Source: a virus
Direction: 5' to 3' (one strand)
DNA: 35,854 nt
Virus record (IMG/VR): IMGVR_UViG_3300021178_000029
Span: 1-35,854 of that record
Shown here piece by piece: positions 8,801-24,883 of this stretch (its first letter is position 1; each line of letters starts with the position of its first letter). The notes below the pieces were generated by a model that saw only the letters and a program-made list of their open reading frames with translations, had not been told where the DNA came from and did not search any database. Position numbers and translations under genes: made by a program.

Positions 8801-9541
8801 TTAGACAGTGACATTGCGGAACACCAGAGCAATATTAGCAGCAGAAAGGTTTACGCCGGTAGCATTAATGTCGGAAACCGCATAGGTAGCCAGCGGAGCA
8901 CTTTGCGTTACCGAGTGCACGCCCATGCCTGGGAAAAGTCCACCAGAAGTGGCGGTTGCGCCCGTAAATTCGACTGCATAGTTCTGACCGGTTTGCAGCT
9001 GTGCGCCACCGTAGATAGACATCGTTTGACCAAGTGCGGTGGTGGAAAGCCCGATCGATGTGGTATTGGTCGAAATCGCAAATCCCACCAGGTATTCACC
9101 CTGATAGACCGAGGCAAAGCCAAGAGGTACAGAGATATTCCGCAGCGCACTCTGATTAAGCTGGGTCACCCCTGCCGTGTTGCTGGCTACGCTATAACTG
9201 ACCGTCACAGATCCAGTGGTCAGCGCGGTCAGACCCAAGGTAGTAGCAGTGCCAGCTCCGAGAGAAGTTTGCGTATAAATGCCGGCAATGGCAGTGATAG
9301 CCAGACCATAGGTATTAGTGGTTGCGCTCGAAGCTACCGAAAAGGCCACCAGAGCATCGACCCGACTGCAGGTGAACGCATTCGGCACGTTCACATAGTT
9401 AAAACTCATGGTCCCATTACCGGGCGCCGTCAGAGCCGTTAACTGGGCGGAGGGATAGATCGTACGCGAGGGCTGGCTGACCGTGATCAGCTCCGCCATG
9501 GAGTTACTTACGATGTTAGTTGCTGGTCCGGGATTAGGCAT
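8801..9541 (-). CDS. Decoration-type virion protein, paralogue of the 5832-6533 product
   Basis: 246 residues, Ser/Thr/Ala/Gly-rich beta protein. From TIYPSAQLTALTAP onward it matches the 233-residue protein at 5832-6533 closely, with conserved blocks YGLAITAIAGIY, TALGQTMSIYGG and MGVHSVTQ. The N-terminal 25 residues differ. It lies two genes downstream of the coat gene, so a head-surface role is likely. Duplication followed by insertion of other genes between the copies would explain the arrangement. Confidence 0.7.
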   Translation of the reverse strand: MPNPGPATNIVSNSMAELITVSQPSRTIYPSAQLTALTAPGNGTMSFNYVNVPNAFTCSRVDALVAFSVASSATTNTYGLAITAIAGIYTQTSLGAGTATTLGLTALTTGSVTVSYSVASNTAGVTQLNQSALRNISVPLGFASVYQGEYLVGFAISTNTTSIGLSTTALGQTMSIYGGAQLQTGQNYAVEFTGATATSGGLFPGMGVHSVTQSAPLATYAVSDINATGVNLSAANIALVFRNVTV

Positions 9542-9554
9542 TTATTCCTCGCTA

Positions 9555-9956
9555 TCAAGCTACAGGTTCTACGAAAAGTTGGATCAGCCCTACACCACTA
9601 GTCATCGTTCCGCCGATAACCACTGCAAGAGAATCGCCAGTATTCAGAGTTACATTAGAACTGTTATTTCCAACCGTCAGCGCAGCTGTAAGCGTCGTAT
9701 CAGCCGTAGGAGTTGCGCTAATGTCAATGGCCGATGTAATCACTGTGCCATTTGCAGGAGCCGTACCAGTTGGGCATTTGACGATCTGGAAAGTCCCTGA
9801 ACTTGATCCCACACGAATACGGTAAGTAACCGCAGTTAGAATGCATGGGATGGTTGCAATAAAAAGATGCTGCGAAACGGTGGTAGCGATGTACAAAAGC
9901 TGCAGCGTCTCGCCGCAAGACTGGCTGGTCATTACCCCTAGAGCGCGTCCAGGCAT
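9555..9956 (-). CDS. Small beta-rich virion protein next to coat
   Basis: 133 residues. The C-terminal two thirds (GSSSGTFQIVKCPTGTAPAN to IQLFVEPVA) alternate short strands with Thr/Asn turns, a pattern common in small phage head-surface proteins. It starts ten bases after the coat gene and is cotranscribed with it. No enzymatic residues seen. Possible decoration or head-stabilising protein. Confidence 0.65.
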   Translation of the reverse strand: MPGRALGVMTSQSCGETLQLLYIATTVSQHLFIATIPCILTAVTYRIRVGSSSGTFQIVKCPTGTAPANGTVITSAIDISATPTADTTLTAALTVGNNSSNVTLNTGDSLAVVIGGTMTSGVGLIQLFVEPVA

Positions 9957-9965
9957 CGTTAGCTC

Positions 9966-11225
9966 CTAGGCCGCAACCCGACAGCCAAGCTCCGGATATA
10001 GCATCGCCCATCCGAACAAGACATCAAGCCTGGTTGGAATGGCGTCGTTATTGATCGTGTACTGGCGCACCACGCGAATCGACAGGCCAATTTCTTCATC
10101 CGATGCTCGACCCGCGAAGTGGACACCCTCCGGCAATTCCAAGTCTGCTACTGCCAAAGTCAGGGCATTGCGGTGCAGCACGATATTCTGTGGAGAGATA
10201 ACCGCGCTCGAAGCTCCAGCAGTCGGCAGGCTGGTGAAGGTAACCGTGCCGCCCGTCGTGGGGGCAGCTGTCACGTTCTGGAACTGTCCGCCGTAGATCA
10301 CAGCGGGAGATACCACTACGTTGAAGTTACCCGCCCCGGACTGGGTAGCGGTCGCAGTTACCACGAAGTTACGCAGTCTGTTGGAGCCATAAGCCTGACG
10401 GTTCTGAGGGTTGACCGCATTCGATCCAGGGAACTGAAGGACATCCCCTACCTGCAGGGTGACGTTATTGGCTGAGTTGTTGATACTGATGGTCGAGGTT
10501 GCCGCCCAGCCGGTTGCCAATCCTTGGTTCGCACCGTTCACGGTGATGGTGGTTGCGCCAGTGGCGAACCCGAACGTGTGACTGACAATGTTCTGATCGT
10601 TATACCAGTTCATCCCTGCGGAATCACGGCCCATCAGGCCCCGCATGTACTGGGATCCGATCTTGTCCTGAGGCACAAACAAGCCCTTCAGGGCATCAAT
10701 AATGGTCGCCGACGTGAAAGGCTCGATCACACATGAGCGCTCACCATCCCGAGGCGTCCCTTCAGCGTCCAGGAAGGCGGCTGCAGTAAGGTAGGTGAGG
10801 AGCGCTGTCGGCGGTGTTCCTGGGGTTCCTACGATGTTCGCAATGCCATTGGCAGCGGTCGTAGTACCCTGAAAGTCGATCTTGTTGGCAATGGCGGCAA
10901 TCTGGGGCTTAAGAACGCGATCGCTGAACATGTCCACGTTAAGCGCCAGCTCTTTAGTGCCGAACTGCGTATCCGTGTGGAACTGAGTCGTCAGGACAAC
11001 CGGAATAGAGGTTTCATTAAAATCCTCGATATTCAGGTTAGGGCCGGTCGTACCGATCACCCGCACCGGGCGACGGACGTTTACCGTGTCGCCAATTTTC
11101 GCGCCTACGACCGCGTATTGATCGTCGTAATCGCGGTTCACACACATCGTGAATGTGAGTGAATTTTCCAGGACCATCAACGCCTCGTTGGTGATCTTGG
11201 AAATCGTAAGTTCCGTATTGGCCAT
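9966..11225 (-). CDS. Major capsid (coat) protein, P22 gp5-like
   Basis: 419 residues. The N-terminus MANTELTISKITNEALMVLENSLTF, then GAKIGDTVNVRRP and FNETSIPVVLTTQFH, is the conserved start of P22-type coat proteins (HK97 fold with an inserted domain). The closing region VRVVRQYTINNDAIPTRLDVLFGW is also typical. GGAGG precedes ATG 11225. A strong promoter-like sequence lies about 125 bases upstream, giving the coat gene its own transcription start as expected for the most abundant protein. Confidence 0.9.
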   Translation of the reverse strand: MANTELTISKITNEALMVLENSLTFTMCVNRDYDDQYAVVGAKIGDTVNVRRPVRVIGTTGPNLNIEDFNETSIPVVLTTQFHTDTQFGTKELALNVDMFSDRVLKPQIAAIANKIDFQGTTTAANGIANIVGTPGTPPTALLTYLTAAAFLDAEGTPRDGERSCVIEPFTSATIIDALKGLFVPQDKIGSQYMRGLMGRDSAGMNWYNDQNIVSHTFGFATGATTITVNGANQGLATGWAATSTISINNSANNVTLQVGDVLQFPGSNAVNPQNRQAYGSNRLRNFVVTATATQSGAGNFNVVVSPAVIYGGQFQNVTAAPTTGGTVTFTSLPTAGASSAVISPQNIVLHRNALTLAVADLELPEGVHFAGRASDEEIGLSIRVVRQYTINNDAIPTRLDVLFGWAMLYPELGCRVAA

Positions 11226-11345
11226 GTGGCCTCCGAAAAGTTAGTTGGGATTTCGGTCCCGACTACCCATGGGGGCCAACACGATATTTGCGCGATTAAG
11301 GCTCGCTACTCCGTCTGTATGTCGCCCAGACCGGCGCTCTAAGTA

Positions 11346-11495
11346 CTACTTATAGCACGACAATTTTTTCGCTGTCAAAGCCCGATAAACCTTATGAGAA
11401 TTGAATCCCCACGGTCTTTTGCGGGGATGGCCTCTTTTCTTGCCTTCATAACCGAACGCCCGCAAGACCCATAAACGGTCGCATGCCCAGCACAT
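11346..11495 (-). CDS. Small basic CxxC protein upstream of coat
   Basis: 49 residues, starting MCWACDRLWVLRAFGY, with a Lys/Arg-rich middle (EGKKRGHPRKRPWG) and a basic end. Its ATG overlaps the stop of the 107-residue gene (TGATG at 11497-11493), which strongly supports translation. The CxxC and high charge suggest nucleic-acid or zinc binding, but no family is recognised. The last part of the gene contains the promoter for the coat gene. Confidence 0.6.
   Translation of the reverse strand: MCWACDRLWVLRAFGYEGKKRGHPRKRPWGFNSHKVYRALTAKKLSCYK
11349..11378 (-). promoter_or_regulatory. Sigma70-type promoter for the coat gene
   Basis: On the minus strand TTGACA (11378-11373), an 18-base spacer and TATAAG (11354-11349) match the housekeeping consensus at 11 of 12 positions. 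Transcription would start near 11342, leaving a leader of about 117 bases before the coat ATG. The leader can form small hairpins: one with GTCTG/CAGAC arms, and GGGA/TCCC just before the ribosome-binding site. Confidence 0.7.
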
Positions 11496-11818
11496 CAGAA
11501 ATGGAAATGCACACCCATATATGCGTTATGAGAGACTATAGCTGCTTCGAAACCGATCACCGTATAGATATGTCGTGACTTCCACGGTTCCGGCAATACT
11601 TGGTTCAGTGTCACGGTAGATGCAGCTCCAATTCCGAAGAATATAGCCGCTCTGGATTGCGAAGGATGGCGACCAAGCATCGGATTCTGTTCCGAACGAT
11701 CTAAACAGGTAATCCGCTTTCCTACAGTTTCGCATTGCTGCGGCCTGTCTATGATTTGGCGAGTTTGCAGATAGTCGGCAGTTTCTAGCGAAAGAGCCAA
11801 TGCCAGCGCGGGATCCAT
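11495..11818 (-). CDS. Conserved small hypothetical protein (ETADYLQT...NPMLGRHPS type)
   Basis: 107 residues. The central NPMLGRHPSQSRAAIFFGIG and the late EAAIVSHNAYMG follow a pattern seen in many small phage and bacterial membrane-associated proteins (E-NP-LG--PS, a hydrophobic helix, then E----HN). One hydrophobic segment lies at about residues 57-70. I chose this frame over an overlapping one (11526-11831) because of that pattern and because its stop overlaps the next gene's start. It sits alone behind its own promoter candidate. Function unknown. Confidence 0.6.
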   Translation of the reverse strand: MDPALALALSLETADYLQTRQIIDRPQQCETVGKRITCLDRSEQNPMLGRHPSQSRAAIFFGIGAASTVTLNQVLPEPWKSRHIYTVIGFEAAIVSHNAYMGVHFHF

Positions 11819-11852
11819 TAGATTGTGCCATTAGTTTGTATACGATATCTGT

Positions 11853-11888
11853 ATAGTATCCTGTTATTGCTAATGGTCAATGACCATT
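11853..11888 (-). promoter_or_regulatory. Promoter candidate with palindromic operator
   Basis: On the minus strand TTGACC (11880-11875), a 16-base spacer and TACTAT (11858-11853) form a fair promoter facing the 107-residue gene. The -35 box lies within a near-perfect inverted repeat, AATGGTCA-A-TGACCATT (11872-11888), which could bind a dimeric regulator. A second pair of arms, TATAC and GTATA, flanks the downstream side. Confidence 0.5.
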
Positions 11889-11895
11889 CGTCGGT

Positions 11896-12819
11896 CTATT
11901 TGATCTTTCCCGCACGGCGGGCATTCCGGTACTCCAAATAACTGCCGGTTACGTTCCCGTCTGCATCCACCACCCCGCCAGGGCCTACCTGCTGGCTTCC
12001 TTCGATCGGCTTGATAGGCTCTGGAGCCTCTTTGGCGCGACGGAATGGCTCAAGTTTCGGAACTGGCAGCGGAGGCACTTCCACATTGCTTTTCTTGCCG
12101 CGAGCCTCGTTTTCAGCCTCAATCCTGACTTCAATCCGGCCCAGATAACGCAATGCAGCAGGAGCTGGCATAGCGTTTACCTTTCCTGCCTCGTCCCGAT
12201 CCTTGGAGAAGTAGTAATGCAACTGCGGACCAACCTCTGATTCGAACATGGCCTGCTGAATCCAGGGCTGGAGAGACAAAGGCTCCGCCATGATCACGTC
12301 GTCAAAGTCGTCGATTTCCTTCTGGCACTTCTTGTAGCGCTGATTCCAGTCAGCAGTCAGCCTAGTCTGGCGCTTTTCCTCCGCTTCCTTGCGGTCAGCC
12401 TCATCCTTTTTCCTTACCTTCTGGTCAGCCAGCCATTCCCCATATGCCTCTCCATATTTCACTGGATCCTGGAAATCTTCCGGCCTCGGCTTCGAATCCT
12501 TGGGCCTCAAAGCAATATCGCGCTCCCGTTCCAGTTCCGCAGCACGCTTTTCAGCATCCGCAGCACGCTTTTCAGCGTCCCGGCGCTTAGCTGTAAGCTC
12601 GGAAATGCGCTCATCGACGCTGCTTTTCTCCTTGCTCTGCTCCGCAGCCTTAGCCTCGACTACAGCCGTTTCCTGCTTCTCAGCGGTTTTGCTGACTTCC
12701 GTCTTAATGGATTTGGACTCGACTGGCTTGGTAGGAAGACCCTGCGAAGGCGCAATCTTCCCCTTGGACGCCATGAAATCGGCGCGCGTATCTCCTGTTA
12801 CTACGGTTGCTTCACCCAT
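11896..12819 (-). CDS. Scaffolding protein
   Basis: 307 residues. A long charged helical middle (residues about 55-140) is rich in Lys/Glu/Ala heptads (SELTAKRRDAEKRAADAEKRA). The N-terminus is flexible and acidic, and the C-terminal tail is basic and ends SYLEYRNARRAGKIK. High charge, coiled coil and placement between portal and coat match the scaffolding proteins of P22-like phages, which drive procapsid assembly and then leave. The start overlaps the end of the 74-residue gene. Confidence 0.75.
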   Translation of the reverse strand: MGEATVVTGDTRADFMASKGKIAPSQGLPTKPVESKSIKTEVSKTAEKQETAVVEAKAAEQSKEKSSVDERISELTAKRRDAEKRAADAEKRAAELERERDIALRPKDSKPRPEDFQDPVKYGEAYGEWLADQKVRKKDEADRKEAEEKRQTRLTADWNQRYKKCQKEIDDFDDVIMAEPLSLQPWIQQAMFESEVGPQLHYYFSKDRDEAGKVNAMPAPAALRYLGRIEVRIEAENEARGKKSNVEVPPLPVPKLEPFRRAKEAPEPIKPIEGSQQVGPGGVVDADGNVTGSYLEYRNARRAGKIK

Positions 12820-13036
12820 CTATGTGCTCCGCACGTTCGTTTCTTCCGGCTTCTATGTTTAGATCAGTCTCAATAGAGCTTTTTGCAAACCGTCTAGCCC
12901 ATGCAATCCAGTTCATGCAGTGCAATTGATCGCATTCCCTGCCATCAGGTGTAATGGGCTGATTTACGATGTAAGCAAGCACTGACCTGAGCTTTTCGAT
13001 ACGTCCATTCATCCTCGCAAACTCTGCATGTGTCAT
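12812..13036 (-). CDS. Small hypothetical protein between portal and scaffold
   Basis: 74 residues, starting MTHAEFARMNGRIEKLRSVLAYIV, with CDQLHCMNWIAWARRF in the middle. Both ends overlap neighbours (ATGA with the portal stop; eight bases with the scaffold start), so it is very probably translated. No recognised family; possibly an assembly accessory factor. Confidence 0.65.
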   Translation of the reverse strand: MTHAEFARMNGRIEKLRSVLAYIVNQPITPDGRECDQLHCMNWIAWARRFAKSSIETDLNIEAGRNERAEHIDG

Positions 13037-15102
13037 TGTCCCGATCCGTTCGTGGTTTGTGCCTGTTGCTGGTTTACCAATGCCTCGAAAGCAGCCAATA
13101 CGCGCTCATGGCCGTGCTGCTTGATCTGCTTCATGATCTCCACCGCACCATTGATTTCCGCCGCGCTCAGGGTCGCATGAGCCTTCGTATGCATATCGTC
13201 CTGCTTGGTGCGATCGCGCATCATCTCCCGCTGGGTCTCTGCACTTTCCTTGATCTGCAGACGATGAGACTCGGCCGCTTCTTTCATGGACTCAATATCC
13301 GCTCGGCTCTTGATCTGCATTCCTGCGGCCTGCAACTGCTGTCCGGCCTGCTGCAACTGAGTCTGCAGCTGCTTGATCATCATTTGCGCATGGGGCGGGA
13401 TGTCGGACTTGTCATCGATCTGTGCAAGCGGGTTCGCTGCAGCCAGCCGATCCGCAATAACCTCTGCACCTGGGAAATCCATATTTCGGAAGAATAAATC
13501 CCCGGCAACTTGCATAAGCGGATTGTTTGGACCCTGCAGGAGCGGGGCCATAGACTCCACCGCTTCCTGGCGCTTAGAGTTATATCCCGGCCCCGTCTCC
13601 ATGACCACATCGTATTGCCCTACCGTCAAATCATTCTCGATCTTGCTGACCGCCTGATCGTCATTGATGGTCACCAGATCCGGTTTCCCATCATCCCCGA
13701 TAATCCGCATAACCCGGCGCTTGCCATAGTAGGCAGGAATCCACGACAGGATAATCCGGCCCGTATGCTTAACAGATCGCGTGAAATTGTCATAGAAATG
13801 GTAGCTCGACATATCCGATTGTTGCTGTTCGGCATTCAAAGCCTTGCCGCTGGTCGGACCATCTCGACGCATAGCAGGATCGAACATTCCGGCGACTCGC
13901 TGCAATGACTCATGTGCATTATTAGCAGCAACTAGCCAGCCCTCGGGCGGAGGCTCAGGCGCTTGCCGCTGAGGCATAGGAATCTCGTTCCCCTGCTCGT
14001 CCCGATGCTCATACCTCAGTAGCGCATAAGAGCTAATGTTGGCCGCCTGCCACTCATTCAGGGTGTTATTGACCGCTTCCGAGGCAGCAACCCATTTGGC
14101 TTTAGGCGCCAAAGCAACAGTTTCGATAATCGCGGTCTGGGTGAAATTCAGGACTTGCTGAGGATCCCTCATATGTCTAGTCATGCCGAACCGCTGCGTC
14201 TTGCCGTCAACCACGATATTAGAGCCATAGACCGGCACTACCGGAATCCAGCGTCCAGGCAATAGCCGCGATTCAAGCACTTCTACAGCCGTAACCTTGT
14301 ACCAATTGACGCGATGACGCCAGCTTTCCCGGTCACCTTTTACCTTGATCCCGGCGCGCTCGAGAATGCCGCTGTCCGGAATCTCGTCATGCCACCAGGA
14401 AGACCCGTCAGACAGATTAATGAGTTTGTGCTTTTCCTTGTCGAGCTTATAAAACTCACCCCACCGAATCGAATCCTTGGTCAGCCATTCTCCGGTCGTA
14501 TCTCCTACCGCTCTTACGCTAAAGCTTGTCTCCTGAGCATCCGGATACATCCTGCGAAAATCATCCTTCGCCATCATCCCGGATATCAGGCATTTCGTCT
14601 GGTCCGAACCGTCCGGGGCGTGCGAGTACGGATCAAAGCTAACCGAAAACGGATTCCAAATAGGCTCGATGAATACGTCTTGGTCGAAACTATCATCATT
14701 GCAGTAATCCGCCCTAAGCCTCCAATAGCCCCACCCCATTCGGACCGCGAATTCGGCGGCCAGATCGTAAGCGTTAGAAGCATCGGATAACTCCTCAATA
14801 TGTCTGGTCAAACCTGTAATGATCTCCGCAATCTTGGCATCAGCGCTCGAGTTAACCCCATGAGCCTTGATTCTGGGCCGCTGCTGGCGGATCTGGTTCA
14901 CGACCTGACGGATGTAGGAATCCGTCTCATTGATCGTGAACATAGGACGCTTCTCCAGATGCCGCTGATTCTGCATTTCTGGTGGCCATTGGCTGCCATA
15001 GGAAAAGCGCAAGTCCTCTAGACCTTGCTGGCGATAGTGCGAGCTGTAGTCTTCCGAACGCCGGAAGAATTCGATCGACTCCTGGGGAATGGTGCTAGAC
15101 AC
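13033..15102 (-). CDS. Portal protein, P22-like
   Basis: About 689 residues from GTG 15102. Conserved stretches are FFRRSEDYSSHYRQQGLEDLRF, RPMFTINETDSYIRQVVNQIRQQRP and RMGWGYWRLRADY, all features of the P22-type portal family (usual length about 700). The C-terminal 130 residues are helical and Gln-rich, the barrel-type tail. The frame is open to an ATG at 15147, but those extra residues are read from the end of the HNH gene. The GTG overlaps that gene's stop and has AAAGAG upstream. The protein forms the DNA gate and the docking site for terminase. Confidence 0.9.
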   Translation of the reverse strand: MSSTIPQESIEFFRRSEDYSSHYRQQGLEDLRFSYGSQWPPEMQNQRHLEKRPMFTINETDSYIRQVVNQIRQQRPRIKAHGVNSSADAKIAEIITGLTRHIEELSDASNAYDLAAEFAVRMGWGYWRLRADYCNDDSFDQDVFIEPIWNPFSVSFDPYSHAPDGSDQTKCLISGMMAKDDFRRMYPDAQETSFSVRAVGDTTGEWLTKDSIRWGEFYKLDKEKHKLINLSDGSSWWHDEIPDSGILERAGIKVKGDRESWRHRVNWYKVTAVEVLESRLLPGRWIPVVPVYGSNIVVDGKTQRFGMTRHMRDPQQVLNFTQTAIIETVALAPKAKWVAASEAVNNTLNEWQAANISSYALLRYEHRDEQGNEIPMPQRQAPEPPPEGWLVAANNAHESLQRVAGMFDPAMRRDGPTSGKALNAEQQQSDMSSYHFYDNFTRSVKHTGRIILSWIPAYYGKRRVMRIIGDDGKPDLVTINDDQAVSKIENDLTVGQYDVVMETGPGYNSKRQEAVESMAPLLQGPNNPLMQVAGDLFFRNMDFPGAEVIADRLAAANPLAQIDDKSDIPPHAQMMIKQLQTQLQQAGQQLQAAGMQIKSRADIESMKEAAESHRLQIKESAETQREMMRDRTKQDDMHTKAHATLSAAEINGAVEIMKQIKQHGHERVLAAFEALVNQQQAQTTNGSGQ

Positions 15103-15577
15103 GAGCGAACTCTTTATGCAGTAAAGGAACAGCAAATTTATAGGCATTATGAGCCGAATATTTGCTAGGCCAATATCCTAGATGAAGCAGTCTTCCATTA
15201 ACGCGGATTTTGGCTACCCAACAATTTAGCCTTGGATACCAATAGGCGCCCTTTAAGCCGCTCGAACTGCGTTTCGTTATTCCTCTATTTCTTTGGTTCT
15301 GCGCTCTTGTTGCAAGCCTTAGGTTGCATATTCTATTGTCCGCACGAATCCCATTGATATGGTCAATTTCTTCCTTTGGAATATCTCCATAAACAAAGAG
15401 CCATGCCAATCTATGAGCCTTACAGCTTAATCCCTTAACTTTTATCTGGACATAGCCGCAAGAATTTTTAGAACAGCCAGCTACATCTCCAGCTTTTACG
15501 CGACCGCGCGAACTTTTCCACCGGAATATTCCCGTTTCCGGTTCATAGCTCAGAAGTTCTTTAAGAGTTTCAGGCAT
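15095..15577 (-). CDS. HNH endonuclease with AP2-type DNA-binding domain
   Basis: 160 residues. The HNH_3-type core is HRLAWLFVYGDIPKEEIDHINGIRADNRICNLR, followed by an AP2-like DNA-binding region (LKGAYWYPRLNCWVAKIRVNG to YWPSKYSAHNAYKFA). This is the standard architecture of homing endonucleases. It lies immediately before the portal gene; its TAG stop overlaps the likely GTG start of portal (GTGTCTAG), and its start overlaps the 57-residue gene by eight bases. Composition is more A/T-rich than the packaging genes, which suggests it inserted at this junction. Confidence 0.88.
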   Translation of the reverse strand: MPETLKELLSYEPETGIFRWKSSRGRVKAGDVAGCSKNSCGYVQIKVKGLSCKAHRLAWLFVYGDIPKEEIDHINGIRADNRICNLRLATRAQNQRNRGITKRSSSGLKGAYWYPRLNCWVAKIRVNGRLLHLGYWPSKYSAHNAYKFAVPLLHKEFARV

Positions 15578-15743
15578 TCAGATGATCAACAATGCCGCAA
15601 TCCCAATTCTCTATTCGACATTTCGCCCATGTATCAATGCATAGAATATAGGGCGCGTCTAGAATGATCCTGAATCTTTCGGGAATCTCATACCGCCTAG
15701 CAGGCTCATAGATCACATGAAATGGCGTCAGATAGTTCCACAT
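15570..15743 (-). CDS. Small hypothetical protein
   Basis: 57 residues from ATG 15743, which overlaps the upstream stop (TGATG). It contains two aromatic, charged helices (FHVIYEPARRYEIPERFRI) and Cys residues in CIDTWAKCRIENWDC. No known family recognised. It may be part of the packaging operon that was separated from portal by the HNH gene. Confidence 0.6.
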   Translation of the reverse strand: MWNYLTPFHVIYEPARRYEIPERFRIILDAPYILCIDTWAKCRIENWDCGIVDHLNA

Positions 15744-16384
15744 CACTCTTTGATCCAAGTCACATCCGGTGATTTCTTTACTACCGTCGAACCATGACTA
15801 TCATGTGCGCGCGGAAGTTTCTGTGGCGGCTCAGTAGGTGGCCGCATCGCTCGCCTGACAAACTCCTGCTCCGTCATCTGCCCCATGGGCGTATCGACCT
15901 TGGGAGACTCGGCAGGAGGATTCAGGCCATACTTGGCTGCTTGCCTGTCTTTCATGCGCTGGGCCGCAGCAGCACGGCGTTCTGGCGTCCAGTTATGCGT
16001 GCCTTTCGGTTTCTGCGCTTCTCTACGCTTGACAATACTCTTGCTAGGAGCGGGGTGAGCTTGTGGCTCAGGAAGTGCCGTTGTTCCTACAGCACCGCCA
16101 TTGCCCCGCATAAACATTTCCTCAAGACGCGCTAGCCTCATCTTAAGTTCTTCATTCTCTATCTCTGCCGCGCTCTTGCGCACATGAGCCTTGTTCTCTC
16201 CCTCCCACTGAGATACAAAGATGCTGAGCTGATTCGTCAGGGTATCCCTCAGCTTAAGCTTGCTCTGCTCATGCTTGCAGTTGCCGGCGACCGACAGTCC
16301 GCTCGGCAGATGCGTGAGTCTCATACCATACGGCATGATGGCAGAATCGAAGTATTCGGAGATGTTGATATCGTCTAGTTGCAT
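15743..16384 (-). CDS. Release-factor-like fold protein without GGQ
   Basis: 213 residues. Residues about 20-55 (MRLTHLPSGLSVAGNCKHEQSK, then LKLRDTL) follow the later part of the catalytic domain of class I peptide-chain release factors (THIPTG-I-V---ERSQHKNR). The catalytic GGQ loop that should precede it is absent. The rest is a helical linker (EIENEELKMRLARLEEMF) and a basic, Pro-rich tail with TPERRAAAAQRMKDRQ. Release-factor-like genes occur in other phages; their role is not settled. It lies between terminase and portal. It cannot hydrolyse peptidyl-tRNA by the known mechanism. Confidence 0.5.
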   Translation of the reverse strand: MQLDDINISEYFDSAIMPYGMRLTHLPSGLSVAGNCKHEQSKLKLRDTLTNQLSIFVSQWEGENKAHVRKSAAEIENEELKMRLARLEEMFMRGNGGAVGTTALPEPQAHPAPSKSIVKRREAQKPKGTHNWTPERRAAAAQRMKDRQAAKYGLNPPAESPKVDTPMGQMTEQEFVRRAMRPPTEPPQKLPRAHDSHGSTVVKKSPDVTWIKE

Positions 16385-16386
16385 GA

Positions 16387-16575
16387 TTATTCAGTCCTTG
16401 GAGAAGTATCGCCGTCTCGCCTTACTCTTTGGCTTGTTGGACGATCATTAAATCTAAATTTTATATGTGATCCAGCCGCAATAAAAGAAGTCGCTTCCAA
16501 TGTATGAGCCTGGACACAATTGATTGTCCAGTTATCTCCATCTTCTGGTAAAGATTCGTAAGGAAGATATTTCAT
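16387..16575 (-). CDS. Small hypothetical protein after terminase
   Basis: 62 residues from ATG 16575, which overlaps the terminase stop (ATGA). Starts MKYLPYESLPEDGDNWTINC and ends in a basic Ser/Arg tail. No family recognised. Tight coupling to terminase supports translation. Confidence 0.6.
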   Translation of the reverse strand: MKYLPYESLPEDGDNWTINCVQAHTLEATSFIAAGSHIKFRFNDRPTSQRVRRDGDTSPRTE

Positions 16576-17921
16576 CCTGCCCAAATCATACGCTGTTGCG
16601 GTAAGGGTTTGACCTTCTGTTTCTTGCGCTCTGCAACAATTCCAGGGAATAGCTCCGAAAGAGCCCAGATCGCAGCATCAGCCCGGTTAGGACTTCCTGT
16701 CCCTGTATAGCCAATGGTCGAGAATCCGGCTAGCTCATCCTCCAGATCCCTGAAATATCCCACATGGCGCACCTTACCAACGTCATATAGCGCCGCAATC
16801 GGCTCGGCCCTCACTACCTTACCCCTGCTGGCAATGACAGCCTTGTAGGGCGTTCTGGGCCGCGCTGTCTGAATCACGTGTTGAACCATGGCGCCACCAA
16901 AGTTAGCCTCCCCAACAATGAGGTCAGCTTGGTGCCGGTCAAAAGCCCCCGTGGCAATCGCCCCCCACAGTCTCGGTCCTCCCTTAACGGTGCAGTCTTC
17001 GAGCACGTATGCGTTCCCATCAGTTCCAAGGCCAGCGACAATAACTCCGATTGAGTCATGCTCGGTAGTGTCCCGGTCGCTGGCTCCAGAGGGATCCACG
17101 CCAATGACGATGCGTTGCAAGTCGGGCACCACCCCGTCAAGCACCCGCCATTTGTCAATCGTTGCATCATCAAAAAGGGCATCCGGGTTAGCATCGGCAA
17201 ACTCTCCTCTAACGAACCGTTTCTGCAGCCTGGCACTCAGCCCCTCGAGCGTCTTTATATAGTCCGCCGGCAGATTATCCATGTTGTCATATGGATTCAT
17301 CTGCAGCGCAACATAGTTCTGCTGATCTCCTAGCGGTATCTTGGTATCCGGATCACGCTTCTCTATGAAGAGCTTGTAGGTCCAGTGTCCTTTGCTTGGA
17401 GGATTCTCGTCTAGATATAGCTTGCGCCGCAAATCCCGCTCGGTCCCGTCGATCTTCACCTTCTGCGCTAGGCGAGTCACCGCTATGTCCCGGCTGGACT
17501 TCGGGATCTGGCTGGCTTCGTTCAGGAAGATGCTCGAGAACTCCATGCCTAGGATCTTCTCAGTCCGTTCCTTGTCGTCCAGACCGCCGAACCATATCTC
17601 CGAGTCGTTCTCGAACCTGGCTACCCATTCCCGCTTGTCTACGCTGTACTTAAGCTCGGGCCAGCAGCTGCGCATGACCTTGGGAAAGGTGTCCGCAACG
17701 ATCGAAGCCATGACAGCGTTGAACCGGAACCGGAACACTGCATGTCTCGAGAACGAAGCGGCCAAGGCTCGGACCACGATCGCACGGACAATCAGGAATG
17801 TCTTGCCGGATCTGGAGCCTCCATACAGCAGGATTTGCTCGGCTGAGCTGCCAAGCAAGTCGTTGGCTTGCTCCTGCTTGACTGTCAGTTTCACGGCGAG
17901 AACTGATTGCGCCAGCGCCAA
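16572..17921 (-). CDS. Terminase large subunit
   Basis: 449 residues. ATPase: Walker A GGSRSGKT (residues 34-41) and Walker B IFLNEAS (131-137), with the catalytic Glu at 135. Nuclease: IVIGVDPSGA (about 271-280) with the first acidic residue at D276, then DLIVGEANFGG and a late RADAAIWAL. This is the DNA-packaging motor that cuts concatemers and pumps DNA through the portal. The start overlaps the small HTH gene by 31 bases and lies just downstream of the putative small subunit. Confidence 0.92.
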   Translation of the reverse strand: MALAQSVLAVKLTVKQEQANDLLGSSAEQILLYGGSRSGKTFLIVRAIVVRALAASFSRHAVFRFRFNAVMASIVADTFPKVMRSCWPELKYSVDKREWVARFENDSEIWFGGLDDKERTEKILGMEFSSIFLNEASQIPKSSRDIAVTRLAQKVKIDGTERDLRRKLYLDENPPSKGHWTYKLFIEKRDPDTKIPLGDQQNYVALQMNPYDNMDNLPADYIKTLEGLSARLQKRFVRGEFADANPDALFDDATIDKWRVLDGVVPDLQRIVIGVDPSGASDRDTTEHDSIGVIVAGLGTDGNAYVLEDCTVKGGPRLWGAIATGAFDRHQADLIVGEANFGGAMVQHVIQTARPRTPYKAVIASRGKVVRAEPIAALYDVGKVRHVGYFRDLEDELAGFSTIGYTGTGSPNRADAAIWALSELFPGIVAERKKQKVKPLPQQRMIWAG

Positions 17922-18058
17922 GCATTATCCACACAGATTCCATATATCTCAGAGGCTTGGCGACATGTAAGGCTCTCCAGAATCATCCTTTCCGCCACTT
18001 CCTGCTTGAATTCCTTGGAATACTCTTTGCGACGCTTAGGCTCGATCAGGTGAATCAT
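17891..18058 (-). CDS. Small helix-turn-helix protein (transposase-OrfA-like HTH) between the terminase genes
   Basis: 55 residues: a basic start (PKRRKEYSKEFKQEVAERM) followed by CRQASEIYGICVDNAWRWRNQF. This matches the HTH of IS3-type OrfA proteins, where a YS-EFK start and an R-A-E-YGI----WRW turn are typical. There is no transposase catalytic part and no inverted repeats. The start overlaps the upstream gene (ATGA) and the end overlaps terminase by 31 bases, so it belongs to the packaging operon. It may be the DNA-recognition part of a split small terminase, or a regulator. Confidence 0.6.
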   Translation of the reverse strand: MIHLIEPKRRKEYSKEFKQEVAERMILESLTCRQASEIYGICVDNAWRWRNQFSP

Positions 18059-18330
18059 AGGAGTTTGGTATCGCTGTCAGACAGCTTCACTTCGAATGGC
18101 TTCCCGCCAGCATTGCCGATGTCCACATTGGCTAGCTTTGGATGAATGTAAGGGGCCGCAGTCTGAGCCGCCCATTTCCTGTCCTCTGGCTTAGCATTTT
18201 CGGTTCTCAGAAGATTCAGCATGTAGTCGAGCGGCGTTAACCCGGAATTCGACACAGACTCCTGTCTAGCTGTACTAGCTCTGTTGGGAGTGCCGCGAGT
18301 CCTGCCACCAGTTTTTCGTCCAAGCGCCAT
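18055..18330 (-). CDS. Putative terminase small subunit
   Basis: 91 residues. It begins MALGRKTGGRTRGTPNRAS, a basic start shared by many proteins found just before phage large terminases. Then comes a helical stretch (PLDYMLNLLRTENAKPEDRKWAAQTAAPYIHPKLA) typical of small-terminase-like proteins. The C-terminus is acidic. Position, two genes before the large subunit and overlapping the HTH gene, supports a role in recognising the packaging site. No separate HTH motif is obvious in it; the neighbouring 55-residue protein has one. Confidence 0.65.
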   Translation of the reverse strand: MALGRKTGGRTRGTPNRASTARQESVSNSGLTPLDYMLNLLRTENAKPEDRKWAAQTAAPYIHPKLANVDIGNAGGKPFEVKLSDSDTKLL

Positions 18331-18341
18331 CTAGCTATTAT

Positions 18342-18479
18342 CTACTTCTGACGCTTTTTTTCTACTCCCTTGATCGTACCCTTATTTCGGCTAGCGTAGA
18401 ACACTTCCTTAGCCTTCTTGCCGCCGTACTCCTTGACCATGTTTCCCATGATCTTTGACCCTTTTTTTGTTAGTGGCAT
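18342..18479 (-). CDS. Small conserved basic phage protein (MPLTKKGSKIM type)
   Basis: 45 residues from ATG 18479: MPLTKKGSKIMGNMVKEYG followed by GKKAKEVFYASRNKGTIKGV. This short Lys-rich form (KKG-KIM----YG-KK-K-VFYA---KG) recurs near terminase genes in many phages. Function not established. It sits between the co-chaperonin/membrane genes and the small terminase. Confidence 0.75.
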   Translation of the reverse strand: MPLTKKGSKIMGNMVKEYGGKKAKEVFYASRNKGTIKGVEKKRQK

Positions 18480-18485
18480 TATGAT

Positions 18486-18647
18486 CTAGCGAAACCCGGC
18501 GCCCCAGGTGCTCTTAGGGTCCAGTTTCCTAGCTTCGCTTCGTCGAGCAGCCCCTTCGCCAGCGAAGGGTCCAGCCGCGGCGAGAAGCAGCCATAGTCCG
18601 GCGGTGATCTGCCCGCTGATCCCGAGATCGGAGATGACTTTATTCAT
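18486..18647 (-). CDS. Small single-span membrane protein
   Basis: 53 residues from ATG 18647, which overlaps the end of the GroES-like gene by eight bases. A hydrophobic Ala/Leu segment (AGLWLLLAAAGPFAG, residues about 16-30) is followed by a basic tail. It could be a tiny membrane factor; no family recognised. The frame is also open upstream, but those residues overlap the GroES-like gene. Confidence 0.55.
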   Translation of the reverse strand: MNKVISDLGISGQITAGLWLLLAAAGPFAGEGAARRSEARKLDPKSTWGAGFR

Positions 18648-18963
18648 TCTCGATGATTCCGCATATGTCTTGCCATGACAGAACCAGTAGCCTATCTGGC
18701 CCGAGAGCGGGTACCTCAGGGTAGTCCCATTCGCCAAAAAGTACGCGATCGCCTACAGAAAGGGCTGGCGAGTGCTGGACCCCTTTTCGCGTGGTCTTAC
18801 CAGGACCCACAGCAACAACAGTACCCGTACGGCCCAGCTGCTCACGGCTGCCAGCATGATTCTCCCCTGTTCCTACCGTACGAGCATTCACCACTATCCG
18901 CTTGCTCACATGGCCCGCAATGGGGTCTGGCTTCACCAGGATGTGATCCCGGAGCGGTCTCAC
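18640..18963 (-). CDS. GroES-like co-chaperonin (Cpn10)
   Basis: 107 residues from GTG 18963, which overlaps the upstream stop (GTGA). The pattern VRPLRDHILVKPDP, GRTGTVVAVGPG, SVGDRVLFGEW and DICGIIE follows the GroES fold from the first strand to the last. Residues about 18-43 form a longer variable stretch where the mobile loop that contacts GroEL belongs. Phage co-chaperonins (T4 gp31 is the known case) adapt GroEL to fold the coat protein; that role here is inferred. No phage GroEL is present. Confidence 0.85.
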   Translation of the reverse strand: MRPLRDHILVKPDPIAGHVSKRIVVNARTVGTGENHAGSREQLGRTGTVVAVGPGKTTRKGVQHSPALSVGDRVLFGEWDYPEVPALGPDRLLVLSWQDICGIIENE

Positions 18964-19364
18964 TTGACTTCCTTGCAATGCTCTCTAACCCATTCTATCG
19001 GCGCACAAATCCGGCCGAATTGCTCCACAAATGGCTCTTTCAGGGTTTTCTTATCGTCCTCGTATAGCGTATCTTTGTGATCTGCTTTGTATCTGCATCC
19101 CGCAAACGCCCAGACTTCCGTATCGATATTGATCTCATAGCATCGAACGGCATAGCGGCCAGAATTAACCGCTACCTTGACCATTTCCTGCTGTGCCCAT
19201 TTCAAGCGCCCATTGACGCTATCGTTTAAGCATTCCTGCTCATAGGCCAGATCCAGCGCTTGCTCGAGCATTTTCCAATTGGGCTGGTCATAGCCGTACT
19301 TTTCTAATGCAGAAGCCAATTGCCCTGTCTTGGAATGCCATACATAGCCCTTCATTTGGCTCAT
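18960..19364 (-). CDS. Hypothetical protein
   Basis: 134 residues, soluble, aromatic and charged (YVWHSKTGQLASALEKYGYDQ; CYEINIDTEVWAFAGCRYK). The stop overlaps the GTG of the GroES-like gene. No domain recognised and no signal peptide. It lies at the border between the small early genes and the packaging genes. Confidence 0.6.
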   Translation of the reverse strand: MSQMKGYVWHSKTGQLASALEKYGYDQPNWKMLEQALDLAYEQECLNDSVNGRLKWAQQEMVKVAVNSGRYAVRCYEINIDTEVWAFAGCRYKADHKDTLYEDDKKTLKEPFVEQFGRICAPIEWVREHCKEVK

Positions 19365-19366
19365 TC

Positions 19367-19741
19367 TTAGCCTTTATGGGTGAATCCCATCTTGCCGCGC
19401 TGATGACGGTAAATAACGCCTTCTTGTTTCCCGGAATTCATCTCGCCCGTGCGGCCATCATGGGCACCAGCATGGGATGCTTTGCGGCCGGTTAATGCAT
19501 CAGCCTTTCCTTGACCGACGCCGCCCTCAATCTTTTCCCTGCGTTCGCCGGTACTATCCTTGCCTTTAGCGCCAGCAGGTTCCCGCTCGCGCGTGTAGCC
19601 TTCTTGGCCCTTCTCCCGATCCGCAATCGGGACCGAGACTTTCTTCTGCCAGCGATCGGCCGCAGCTGCGCCCTTGGGTTCCTTCTCTCCGGATTCGCCC
19701 TTGGTGCCGTAATCCGTTTTGTACTGATTCATCTTAGCCAT
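19367..19741 (-). CDS. Highly charged hypothetical protein
   Basis: 124 residues with very high Lys/Glu/Gly/Arg content and few hydrophobic residues, so probably disordered (KGESGEKEPKGAAAADRWQKK; KIEGGVGQGKADALTGRKA). The C-terminal RGKMGFTHKG resembles a short tail seen in small phage proteins. It may bind DNA or act as an internal protein; no family recognised. Confidence 0.55.
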   Translation of the reverse strand: MAKMNQYKTDYGTKGESGEKEPKGAAAADRWQKKVSVPIADREKGQEGYTREREPAGAKGKDSTGERREKIEGGVGQGKADALTGRKASHAGAHDGRTGEMNSGKQEGVIYRHQRGKMGFTHKG

Positions 19742-19742
19742 G

Positions 19743-19982
19743 CTAGCTCCTGACGATCCTAGGGAAACCAGCTGCCATATTACGTCTTACTGCCTCCGCC
19801 TTGCAAGCTTCCTTGGGACAGACCACTGTCGCCATGGCTTTGCCATCTTTCGCGGTAGCTTCAAGAGCTACATAATTCTCATCTAATTCATGTCCCCCGA
19901 ATGGCTCTCCACAGACTGGACAAGGAAACCAAAAGTATCCCATCACATCTGCATAGAACTTATGGAAAGTTCTCGGAATCAT
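19743..19982 (-). CDS. Small zinc-finger-like protein
   Basis: 79 residues from ATG 19982, which overlaps the upstream stop (ATGA). FPCPVCGEPFGGHE and, about 40 residues later, VVCPKEAC supply two CxxC/CxxxC pairs that can bind one zinc ion. Typical small phage zinc-ribbon-like protein of unknown role. Confidence 0.65.
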   Translation of the reverse strand: MIPRTFHKFYADVMGYFWFPCPVCGEPFGGHELDENYVALEATAKDGKAMATVVCPKEACKAEAVRRNMAAGFPRIVRS

Positions 19983-20155
19983 CGTTTTCTCCAATTTCGC
20001 AATACTATCCAAATTGCTGTTTTGATTCGATCAAAACTAGCTATCAAAACAACTATTACATACTGAGCAAAGAATCCAATAACCCATGTCCACCACGGCC
20101 AATGAATAGGATCTAAACAATCTCCTCTAGTTGGACACCATGCAGGATCTGTCAT
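19979..20155 (-). CDS. Small membrane protein
   Basis: 58 residues: a Cys/Trp-rich start (DPAWCPTRGDCLDPIHWPWW), then one membrane span (WVIGFFAQYVIVVLIASF) and a basic tail. The stop overlaps the next gene (ATGA). It follows a hairpin with a short T run, so it may be subject to attenuation. Confidence 0.65.
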   Translation of the reverse strand: MTDPAWCPTRGDCLDPIHWPWWTWVIGFFAQYVIVVLIASFDRIKTAIWIVLRNWRKR

Positions 20156-20159
20156 AAAA

Positions 20160-20223
20160 CGGGATCCCCAACCGCTAACGCCATGTCAGATTACTCTGTG
20201 TGCTGCTGCGCATTGGGGTCCCG
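20160..20223 (-). terminator. Long hairpin, possible terminator or attenuator
   Basis: On the minus strand an 11-base-pair stem with one bulge (CGGGACCCCAA at 20223-20213 pairing with TTGGGGATCCCG at 20171-20160) encloses about 41 bases, which contain a CAGA-GTAA-TCTG hairpin with a GNRA-type loop. TTTT follows directly and then the ATG of the next gene. It begins just after the stop of the pentapeptide gene. Confidence 0.5.
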
Positions 20224-20225
20224 GT

Positions 20226-20876
20226 TCACTCGCTAGAACACGGACTAGCATCAATCGTCGGCACTTCCTCGACATGAATAGCGCATTTCCTGATGTCTTC
20301 CATCGCATCGTCATCTGTTGCATAGAAATCAGGCGCAGGCTGTCCGGGCCGTGAAGCTTCGTAGATCAAAGTTCCTGCAATTTGCGGGCCAAATCTGGCC
20401 TCCAATGCTTTCCCTTTCTCTCCCCCTAGATGCACAGCCCATCCGGCACGGCAATGAGTTGTCCCGCATATGCCATTGGCATGCCATGAATTCATATCAA
20501 GTTTTCCGCCCATCTCGATAGCACCAAGAATTACGTTGTCGATATTCGGAATCACCGGAATATCCGCAGAATCCACTTTTAATGCACCGCGCAGGTTCGC
20601 ACCGCGCAGGTCCGCACCGCTCAGGTTCGCACCGCGCAGGTCCGCACCGCTCAGGTCCGCACCGCACAGGTTCGCACCGCACAGGTTCGCATCGCGCAGT
20701 TACGCACCGCGCCCGCCCGCACCGCGCAGGTCCGCATCGCGCAGGTCCGCACCAGTCTTATATGCCCACCTTACAGCCAAACCAAGCTTTACCGATACCG
20801 AAGCATCTTCCGCACATTCAATCTCTGCCGTGAATTGAACTTCACCAGAAAATCGGTTCTTAACCTCGAACTTCAT
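20226..20876 (-). pseudogene. Pentapeptide-repeat protein interrupted by an in-frame stop
   Basis: From ATG 20876 (GGAGG upstream) the frame reads MKFEVKNRFSGEVQFTAEIEC, then pentapeptides GADLRDADLRGA, then a TAA at 20702-20700. In the same frame the pentapeptides resume ([23 protein letters not shown]) and are followed by a conserved-looking C-terminal domain ([15 protein letters not shown] to [13 protein letters not shown]) that ends at 20226. Intact relatives join these parts, so this copy is about 216 codons with one nonsense codon. The repeat just before it is also degenerate (GGRGA). It may be a real mutation, an assembly error in the repeats, or two separately translated pieces. Confidence 0.75.
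20583..20753 (-). repeat. 15-base tandem repeats encoding pentapeptides
   Basis: Eleven tandem copies plus six bases of a GGTGCGGACCTGCGC-type unit on the minus strand. Copies differ mainly at codons for Asp/Asn and Arg/Ser/Cys. Units three and four are the most divergent, and unit four contains the stop codon. Such near-identical units can expand, contract or misassemble. Confidence 0.9.
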
Positions 20877-21955: not shown

Positions 21956-22168
21956 TCACGAACCGACGAACGGTAAATCTCTAGTCCTGGTCCAATCGAA
22001 AGGATAGAAGCCGTATTTGTGCTGAATTTTCTTTACTCGATATTCAATCGGATCCGTTTTCACGATCATCTTCAACAGCCACGTTTGCAGTCCGATCAAT
22101 TGACCGCGTCGGATCACTAACCGCTCCTTGTGATGACACCATTCTTGGTCGCCTACTCTTCGGCTCAT
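21956..22168 (-). CDS. Small hypothetical protein
   Basis: 70 residues, basic, starting MSRRVGDQEWCHHKERLVI and ending YGFYPFDWTRTRDLPFVGS. The ATG overlaps the upstream stop (ATGA). No family recognised; the stop lies directly at the edge of the downstream promoter. Confidence 0.6.
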   Translation of the reverse strand: MSRRVGDQEWCHHKERLVIRRGQLIGLQTWLLKMIVKTDPIEYRVKKIQHKYGFYPFDWTRTRDLPFVGS

Positions 22169-22632
22169 ACCGGATCCCCTTCATGCTGTATTGCAGCACG
22201 TTCTAGTTCCCATTCGGCATCTCTGTGAAACTGCACATCACAAGTTTTTGGTAGTCCTGCTCCAGGCCTGAGCGTTACCACTTCCCCCAAGCTTACAAAT
22301 GTCCCTACAGACCTACTGGCAGGCTTAAGCTTTGCCATCCTCTCCCAGAACTCCCTATAGGCCGCAGAATCGGCTCTGCCGGCCTGTATAGGCTTGGATT
22401 GCGGGTAGGTTCGTTTAGGCGGCTCAGGGGCGAATACTGGCTTCCTGCGGGTATTCCTGACCCATGTCTGCCAGGTGCGCTTCCAGTCCACCATTGTTTC
22501 GCCGCGCCCTACCCAGTAATCCGTGAAATCCTCCCATATTTCATGCGGTTTCAGATCCGGCCGGCGCTCGATACAGTACTCGGCCCAGTCGTCTGGAAGC
22601 TCGGTAATGGAAAGACGGGTGCCTCTGCTCAT
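22165..22632 (-). CDS. DnaT-like primosome/replication protein
   Basis: 155 residues. ELPDDWAEYCIERRPDLKPHEIWEDFTDYW followed by DWKRTWQTWVRNT matches the C-terminal DnaT-like domain found in many phage replication proteins (DW--Y-----P-L----W--F--YW, then DW--TW--W-R). Such proteins are thought to load host helicase at an origin. The usual N-terminal DNA-binding domain is absent; only about ten residues precede the domain. It overlaps genes on both sides. Its role in recruiting the host replisome is inferred. Confidence 0.65.
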   Translation of the reverse strand: MSRGTRLSITELPDDWAEYCIERRPDLKPHEIWEDFTDYWVGRGETMVDWKRTWQTWVRNTRRKPVFAPEPPKRTYPQSKPIQAGRADSAAYREFWERMAKLKPASRSVGTFVSLGEVVTLRPGAGLPKTCDVQFHRDAEWELERAAIQHEGDPV

Positions 22633-22820: not shown

Positions 22821-23002
22821 TAGCAGTCCCAGTCATAAGCCGCGCAACGGGCCGCTTCAACGATACTGTCGCCGCGCTTTATGTATTGAGAAAAGCTCAG
22901 CACCACTTCTACGCTCATATGTGCATATTGTGCGCGTTTAAGCATTGAATGGACCGCGAGCATGTCAGCGGCATCTGCCTTATTGCCGTCGTTAGTAGTC
23001 AT
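22820..23002 (-). CDS. Small hypothetical protein
   Basis: 60 residues, helical (DAADMLAVHSMLKRAQYAHMSVE; YIKRGDSIVEAARCAAYDWDC). The ATG overlaps the upstream stop (ATGA) and the stop overlaps the next ATG (TAATG). No family recognised. Confidence 0.6.
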   Translation of the reverse strand: MTTNDGNKADAADMLAVHSMLKRAQYAHMSVEVVLSFSQYIKRGDSIVEAARCAAYDWDC

Positions 23003-23370
23003 GGCTTGTATACCTTAGCAATATGGCGGGCGAGCGGCAACGGGATCTTGGCAATCTGGGCAGAAGCGCGGGCGCGGGCAGGCGATTTAGAACTTGTTGT
23101 GGCGGATAGGTTGCCTTTACCGTCAGACCACCGATTCCTCGCATTTTTCAACCCAGCCAGCGCATGAACAGGATTCCGGACGAGACCACTCATCGTGTTG
23201 TTAGCGACGTTGAACCACGAGCCGCCCCAATTCTTGATTGCGACCTCGATCGGCATCAGCGTCGGCACGTCGCCCCAAAGGTGAAAGCTTCCGAAGTTCC
23301 AGCGCGAGCGCCCGACCCATTCGTTCGCTCCGCGCACGTGCTTCCCCAATGGCGATAGCCCTGGCTCCAA
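22999..23370 (-). CDS. Hypothetical protein, start uncertain
   Basis: Up to 123 residues, opening at TTG 23370; a GTG about 33 bases downstream has a better upstream GGGGAAG. Contains NEWVGRSRWNFGSFHLWGDVP and a basic C-terminal half (SSKSPARARASAQIAKIP). Reality is supported by the stop, which overlaps the next gene as ATGA. Base composition is more G/C-rich than the two genes upstream. Function unknown. Confidence 0.5.
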   Translation of the reverse strand: MEPGLSPLGKHVRGANEWVGRSRWNFGSFHLWGDVPTLMPIEVAIKNWGGSWFNVANNTMSGLVRNPVHALAGLKNARNRWSDGKGNLSATTSSKSPARARASAQIAKIPLPLARHIAKVYKP

Positions 23371-23875: not shown

Positions 23876-23914
23876 AGGATCCCCTTGCAAGCGTCTTTTG
23901 TGTTTTAGATCAGT

Positions 23915-23942
23915 AAAAAGGAAAGACCCGCCTTTTCGCGGT
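23915..23942 (-). terminator. Terminator-like hairpin after the structured RNA
   Basis: Minus strand CCGC-GAAAAG-GCGG, extended imperfectly by flanking A and T runs, followed by GTCTTTCCTTTTT. The stem is short but the T-rich tail is good. It lies between the structured RNA and the next leftward gene. Confidence 0.5.
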
Positions 23943-23947
23943 TTGCC

Positions 23948-23956
23948 TGTGGATAA
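23948..23956 (-). other. DnaA-box-like site
   Basis: TTATCCACA on the minus strand is a perfect match to the strong DnaA box. Only one copy was noticed here. It lies at the edge of the structured noncoding stretch and 1.3 kb from the DnaT-like gene, so an origin in this region is possible but unproven. Confidence 0.4.
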
Positions 23957-24231
23957 CTTGGGCCAGCTCGCATTTTGCTGGTCGGGTGCCATTCGTTTAG
24001 CTGCCGTACCAGCCCTAGTAAGCGCTGGCTACTTTCAGCTTCATCCCCTGCGGGCACCGTCTCGACGGGTAGGACCGGGTCAGTCCCGAACCGACGTCCA
24101 GACGCAAAAACGCCCACGGCTGGACTGGTTGGGGAATACGGTGGAAGTCCGCATACCTCTTTCGAGGTCCCAGCCCAAGCGTGGGCGCTCTTTCCATTAA
24201 ATCCGATTCCCCAATCGGCATGCATATGCTA

Positions 24232-24420
24232 TCAAACCTTTTTTGCCATTGCAACTTTGCTAGCCGCCATGCATTTATCGATTTCCCTATCTAGGGCATC
24301 GGTCGTTCCGTTCCAATTCTTCTTAATCGGAGTCCAGGTCTCGTCTCCGATATCACGTAACCATCGATATCTAGCAGCTTCTTTCTGCAGCTTATGAAAA
24401 TGCTTCTCAGTAATTTCCAT
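24232..24420 (-). CDS. Small hypothetical early protein
   Basis: 62 residues: a helical start (EKHFHKLQKEAARYRWLRDIG) and DALDREIDKCMAASKVAMAKK. This form (RYRWLRD ... LD-EID--M) is common among small phage early proteins of unknown function. GGAG precedes ATG 24420. Last gene before the structured noncoding stretch. Confidence 0.7.
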   Translation of the reverse strand: MEITEKHFHKLQKEAARYRWLRDIGDETWTPIKKNWNGTTDALDREIDKCMAASKVAMAKKV

Positions 24421-24817: not shown

Positions 24818-24883
24818 GTCATTCCTTTGTTGACAACGCCCATATCATCGTTTATTATTCGTAACGTGTCAAGCGGAGGAATC
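24818..24883. promoter_or_regulatory. Divergent promoter/operator region
   Basis: Rightward: TTGACA (24830-24835), 17-base spacer, TATTAT (24853-24858), an almost consensus promoter for the ERF operon. Leftward: TTGACA on the minus strand (24872-24867) with a weak GATGAT (24849-24844) at 17 bases, for the HTH regulator. The two overlap so only one polymerase could bind at a time. Short inverted repeats (GTTG-A-CAAC around the rightward -35; CGTT/AACG around the rightward -10) are possible operators. Confidence 0.65.

Follow-up and report, generated by a model that had tools for sequence, protein, structure and literature searches.

What is encoded in the 356-nt stretch at positions 23876–24231 of the virus record IMGVR_UViG_3300021178_000029 (IMG/VR; 35,854 bases, hereafter the window), of which the first-pass annotation had called 23905–24231 the only long gene-free stretch and had read as a folded noncoding RNA? 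The first part of that description is roughly right. By our hand-made gene list, on which the ranking rests, it is the longest internal gap of the window, and the next two are 290 and 269 nt in length; nominally it is covered by a 106-residue open frame, which gives no sign of coding selection on comparison. As for the second part, comparison with one homologue indicates that the element located in this gap is almost certainly a selected structured RNA.

Judged by its P22-type portal and its ERF annealing protein, the window is from an uncultured P22-like podovirus. It also encodes a terminase and a head protein, and one HNH gene (15095–15577) adjoins the portal gene. The early genes form two operons that run apart from a point near 24.82 kb, with ERF on the rightward side and a small Cro/C1-type HTH protein on the leftward side; the latter call is based on weak Pfam matches, and its homologue in the second phage described below weakly matches a PHROG transcriptional regulator. 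The element is located ∼370 bases leftward-downstream of the Cro-like gene. It lies ahead of one gene (22165–22632) that resembles replication-initiation or primosomal proteins, and its immediate neighbours are a 62-residue gene before and a 66-residue gene (g23675) after it. Between ERF and the Cro-like gene there are divergent, overlapping sigma70-like promoters (24830–24872; TTGACA-17-TATTAT on the plus strand and TTGACA-17-GATGAT on the minus strand), both of which are kept in the second phage.

The cassette and its relative in a second phage

Two independent searches, one using the protein of the replication gene and the other using a degenerate pattern of the P2 3′ strand, both led to contig IMGVR_UViG_3300021559_000036 (L099; 9,706 bases), which carries one copy of the element (Table 1). 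The terminase of L099 is a different one, and its RecE-like exonuclease takes the place of ERF; a homologous Cro-like gene, the element and the replication gene are common to both phages. In L099, a stretch of ∼80 bases separates the Cro-like gene from the element, and a C5-type methylase gene comes next. Homology between the two copies sets in with the first base of the 5′ hairpin and breaks off within the T-run of the terminator. Because the flanks are unrelated and the homology is bounded by these two features, the element is a discrete cassette of ∼300 bases. The methylase gene of L099 (6674–7237, minus strand) is just downstream of the element; the window keeps two fragments of its 3′ part at 22998–23343 (minus strand).

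A blastn search against phages and plasmids returned no substantial match, and the relatives found via ERF and terminase carry no recognisable copy of the element. Three other DNA patterns in viral contigs, one genome pattern scan, translated scans, 369 bacterial genomes (scanned without a positive control) and one covariance model run over 57 loci all yielded nothing beyond L099. Other candidate hits, which had context at chance level only, were dropped, and one 14-mer common to two further loci (L051 and L096) was judged to be chance. From these searches, two members are known so far, the window and L099.

Table 1. Positions of the cassette, its predicted helices and its candidate signals in the window
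Feature	Positions	Strand	Comparison with L099 and remarks
Whole RNA element (cassette), ∼300 nt	23915–24219	−	87% identity to L099:7350–7645 (−); abrupt ends at both borders
P1, 5′ hairpin CCGATT-GGGG-AATCGG	24203–24218	−	6 bp kept, one U-A to U-G
Long-range helix, 5′ strand TTGGGGAAT	24206–24214, extending to 24203 with one bulge	−	Double compensatory changes with 24137–24129
Long-range helix, 3′ strand ATTCCCCAA	24129–24137	−	Five consecutive double compensatory changes
P2 5′ strand (P2a + P2b)	24170–24192	−	Variation of G-U type and one lost pair only
P2c hairpin, GAAA loop, ACCTC-GAAA-GAGGT	24155–24168	−	Three double changes
P2d hairpin	24137–24153	−	Two double changes
P2 3′ strand ending in U5 (24110–24106), internal terminator-like site	24106–24128	−	Invariant
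GTCCAG, alternative partner of CTGGAC (24101–24096)	24120–24125	−	Competes with P2 and P3
P3, long irregular hairpin of the 3′ domain	24058–24104	−	19 of 19 pairs kept
Helices P4–P7 of the 3′ domain, two alternative pairings predicted	23963–24058	−	Nearly invariant, one G-U change
Perfect DnaA box TTATCCACA	23948–23956	−	Unpaired in the RNA fold; conserved, within a fully invariant stretch
Intrinsic terminator, hairpin 23941–23927 then T-run	23915–23941	−	Re-formed with shifted letters, T6 run
Probable promoter, TTGCAA (24254–24249)-17-TAGCAT (24231–24226)	24226–24254	−	Ends 7 nt before P1; consensus match
Open frame, 106 residues, across the element	23905–24225	−	Judged not a gene

Compensatory changes in the predicted fold

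Every part of the fold proposed by the first-pass annotation could be located. The GGGG-loop hairpin is present on the minus strand (P1), and the complementary segment, which was placed about 70 bases on, corresponds to TTCCCCAA at 24136–24129, 66 nt on from P1. A GNRA-capped hairpin in a stem followed by five T was also described; the GAAA hairpin P2c and the TTTTT at 24110–24106 are there, but the stem is much longer than the eight pairs given, as 24192–24170 pairs with 24128–24106 through 20–22 pairs and runs into the TTTTT. GTCCAG and CTGGAC are complementary as stated, and their pairing would open this stem. Both hexamers are invariant in the two sequences, and the pairing was assessed by its energy. 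The terminator-like hairpin at the end of the element was found as well, directly followed by TCTTTCCTTTTT.

The long-range helix is TTGGGGAAT/ATTCCCCAA in the window and TTGGTAGTC/GACTACCAA in L099, and the five consecutive double changes are seen in a plain MAFFT alignment. P2c changed from ACCUC/GAGGU to CCUCC/GGAGG and P2d from UGCGG/CCGUA to UCGGG/CCCGA; covariation in these two hairpins depends on a hand-shifted, structure-aware alignment, with a one-base shift for loop length. P3 contains one compensatory pair (C140G/G148C) and one G-C to G-U change. Leaving P1 aside, the helices contain 11 pairs with changes on both sides, 5 with a change on one side and 1 that broke. Because P2d lies against the long-range helix, it was omitted from the null, which counts 15 variable pairs; 14 of these are still paired, compared to 6.0 expected and a maximum of 13 in 20,000 redraws. 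In the unadjusted MAFFT alignment, 96.8% of cells are paired, versus 32–44% when the partners were slid by 1–3 columns; this control favours a structure derived from the same sequences, a bias that the double changes share less. The covariation comes from two sequences only, on which phylogeny cannot test it. Taken at this level, the substitutions indicate selection on the RNA fold, and this covers the long-range helix as well as the 5′-half hairpins.

The two halves of the element evolve at different rates. The 5′ half is diverged; the 3′ half is nearly frozen at 97–98% identity (98% mean column identity over 151 columns), and the coding neighbours, at 85–89%, are below it. Up to the terminator, the 3′ half has five clean substitutions only, all of which fit the fold: C140G and G148C are partners in P3, C164T and C199T each lead to a G-U pair, and T251G is located in a loop. 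Since this region hardly varies, the pairing topology of nt 165–260 (P4–P7) is ambiguous. The P2 3′ strand is invariant, while the P2 5′ strand, which is the 5′ arm of the terminator-like stem, drifts, mostly via G-U intermediates; one strand being fixed while the other drifts suggests that the P2 3′ strand has a second partner.

The fold is also stronger than that of shuffled sequence. For the minus strand of 23915–24222 the folding energy has a z of −4.1, and for the homologue it has a z of −5.1; in both cases none of 100 dinucleotide shuffles was as good. Between nt 1–30 and nt 55–96, the longest Watson–Crick helix reaches 9 bp in the window, a length matched by 9 of 2000 shuffles, and 12 bp in the homologue, matched by 0 of 2000. 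As 16 G-U cells would become A-C on the other strand, the minus strand is taken as the transcribed one. An RNA from the plus strand was rejected owing to this and to its weaker fold, with a z of −3.0 compared to −4.3 for a slightly longer minus-strand stretch.

Could the open frame encode a protein instead? It is open in both phages (106 residues in the window and 107 in L099), and the translations are 79% identical over 90 residues. However, its substitutions are spread 13/19/13 over the three codon positions (third position, 13 of 45) and 2/3/0 in its 3′ part (0 of 5), whereas the flanking genes are clearly biased, 11/8/38 in the replication gene (38 of 57) and 8/7/18 in the Cro-like gene (18 of 33). 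One 2-nt indel shifts the N-terminal frame near the start, no Pfam or PHROG match was found for the 106-residue frame, and the changes across it compensate for RNA pairing. Coding is unlikely because none of the five 3′-domain substitutions is at a third codon position, and altogether we consider a protein product extremely improbable. By this comparison there is no coding selection on the frame, whose openness we attribute to the high G+C content of the stretch.

The first-pass annotation had set two outcomes beforehand as grounds to give up the RNA, a lack of covarying pairs in homologues and codon-level selection. Against the homologue, covarying pairs are present and codon-level selection on the frame is absent, in a comparison of two sequences. 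A folded noncoding RNA with a pseudoknot-type long-range helix and competing stems, as had been proposed, is thus supported by comparison with the sole homologue. It was also correct that no known family is matched; no family in Rfam 15 scored above its gathering score for the element, and neither tRNA nor tmRNA was found in it.

Cassette borders and place in the early region

At the level of consensus matches, a promoter and an intrinsic terminator are present at the cassette borders. The upstream site is TTGCAA-17-TAGCAT in the window and TTGACA-16-GAAAAT in L099, and its −35 hexamer is 36 nt from the first hairpin in both phages; otherwise, the 5′ flanks are no more alike than shuffled sequence. 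The window site is weak, matching the consensus at 8 of 12 positions (3% of random positions are as good), and the L099 site matches at 10 of 12 (0.4%). At the 3′ border, both phages have a short hairpin and a T-run composed of different letters. Because these signals sit at the cassette borders, an autonomous trans-acting RNA is favoured among the functional guesses made earlier. We consider it rather probable that the element is an autonomous gene. With marginally less confidence, we would describe it as a ∼300-nt noncoding RNA gene, read leftward, with a promoter (start near 24219) and an intrinsic terminator (∼23915) of its own, and it is from these signals that we infer transcript ends near 24219 and 23915.

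The location between the Cro-like gene and the replication gene suggests that the element tunes early-gene or replication control, and for that reason early-gene control is our best guess. Control of this kind could also be exerted in cis. In HK022, putR is placed after cro; an element at the place of putR, or of nutR-tR1 in lambda, could combine an antiterminator with terminators and, made in the RNA of the leftward operon after the Cro-like gene, gate RNA polymerase into the replication genes. Such a reading agrees with the gene order of both phages, in which the element follows the Cro-like gene and precedes the replication gene, and with its two terminator-like sites; the invariant 3′ domain could be a binding site for RNA polymerase. 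HK022 put, too, is a structured RNA of an early operon, in a phage of lambdoid type, and putR has a place comparable to that of the element; putR lies ∼270 nt after the PR start, and put is ∼70 nt in length with two stem-loops and has left and right copies (PMC9378689). The cassette, however, is ∼300 nt, it has a promoter-like site at its border in both phages as well as its own terminator, and the directly downstream genes differ (g23675 in the window and the methylase in L099). It is present in one copy, as no second copy was found on the rightward (PL-like) side of the window. We therefore regard control in cis as unlikely and prefer the autonomous RNA.

A role in the replication origin, as a DNA or primer-RNA structure beside the DnaA box, had been guessed too, and this guess rests mainly on the one conserved box. 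The box is perfect, near the cumulative GC-skew minimum and 1.3 kb from the replication gene. On the other hand, the turn in GC skew falls where the two operons diverge, and the G-U pairs and the promoter and terminator borders point to RNA. Iterons were looked for in the window and not found, and at the element there is only one DnaA box; an origin function is accordingly given a very small chance. A second perfect DnaA box, again TTATCCACA, is located at 17925–17933 (plus strand), just upstream of the large terminase gene.

A possible termination switch in the 5′ half

The 5′ half may work as a co-transcriptional switch module in which P1 and the long-range helix compete ahead of the stem with U5. 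When growing prefixes were folded, the long-range helix (nt 9–20 with nt 82–94) was part of the best structure at 96–104 nt; once nt 95–117 were out, the best structure became P1 plus the P2 stem running straight into U5, which resembles an intrinsic terminator whose top is branched. In the proposed order of events, nt 9–20 would pair with nt 82–94 when ∼96–104 nt have been made. As the next bases emerge, refolding to P1, P2 and U5 would favour termination near nt 117 and release one short RNA. Otherwise, the long-range helix would be kept, GTCCAG would pair with CTGGAC, P2 would stay open, and readthrough into the 3′ domain would be favoured and give the ∼300-nt RNA. That the switch acts by termination is a tentative proposal derived from modelling. 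The nearly invariant 3′ domain probably binds a host or phage factor.

At equilibrium, P1 plus P2 is better than the long-range alternative by 8–13 kcal/mol in the window and by 7–10 kcal/mol in L099; the switch must therefore be kinetic or need a partner, or else the helix forms a true pseudoknot with P2. The long-range helix and P2 share no bases but cross, so that such a pseudoknot is possible on paper, although by our estimate the connector of 10–13 nt is on the short side to bridge a complete P2. A small 5-bp hairpin ahead of U5 could still form while the long-range helix is in place.

The same segments could serve phage immunity, as the antisense RNAs P4 CI and P1 C4 do. One short 5′ RNA would use the fast-changing P1 loop to pair in trans with nt 82–94 of the nascent RNA from the same locus and force its termination, with a specificity for each phage type. 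From one relative to the other the pairing letters change but the pairing does not, which is what a specificity determinant would show. The complement and the target are in one transcript, as in P4 (PMC4825925). Like P4 CI and the C4 RNAs of P1-like phages (RF01695), the element is a structured phage RNA of the early control region with complementary segments, for which a termination-based switch is plausible. Different from them, it has one complementary site rather than two flanking ones, and it is longer, with a large conserved 3′ domain. The C4 model matched neither the window nor L099, at its gathering score or up to E = 10, leaving the P4/P1 membership considered in the first-pass annotation unsupported. 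In a search for exact complements, that of the P1-loop 9-mer occurs once only in the window, and likewise for the homologue 9-mer in L099. Furthermore, neither integrase nor CI-type repressor was seen among the window proteins scanned, a scan that was not exhaustive. Immunity of the P4 type is thus a doubtful reading, which we rate well below control in cis and hardly above an origin function. An equally long shot is that the element stands for a new class of phage RNA switch with an exchangeable specificity helix, in which a fast-changing self-complementary segment of 9–12 bp on a near-invariant 3′ effector domain would decide early termination sequence-specifically, including in trans between phages, and so give P22-like phages either an immunity that needs no protein or a means of timing their early genes.

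Two further groups of RNAs resemble the element in part. GOLLD and ROOL are also complex RNAs of phages and mobile elements; they are large and ornate, ∼500–900 nt in size, compared to ∼300 nt for the element, which has no Rfam match. IsrK RNA of the Gifsy-1 prophage has a promoter and a terminator of its own, occurs in a short and a readthrough form, and can adopt alternative structures (PMC4825925). The element is similar in its own promoter-like site and terminator and in the possible short and readthrough forms; different from IsrK, which is by a Q-like gene, it follows a Cro-like gene and has no conserved downstream ORF, and no sequence relation between them is shown. The element is best classed as a new family of structured phage RNAs, with two members so far. 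Such RNAs are seldom recognised in phage control regions, as they have no relatives at the sequence level. The cassette described here is common to two phages whose packaging and recombination genes differ, and it is composed of an invariant effector-like domain and one pairing module in which many letters have changed while the pairs are kept; if confirmed, this would be a new RNA family beside the Cro-type switch.

Two observations concern the rest of the window. A pentapeptide-repeat-like gene (20229–20876, minus strand) has an in-frame stop near 20700, and the corresponding L099:4439–5209 is an intact frame of 256 residues. Window positions 6575–20299 recur at 100% identity in IMGVR_UViG_3300050821_002351, a contig of another metagenome, which by this identity is the same phage from a different sample.
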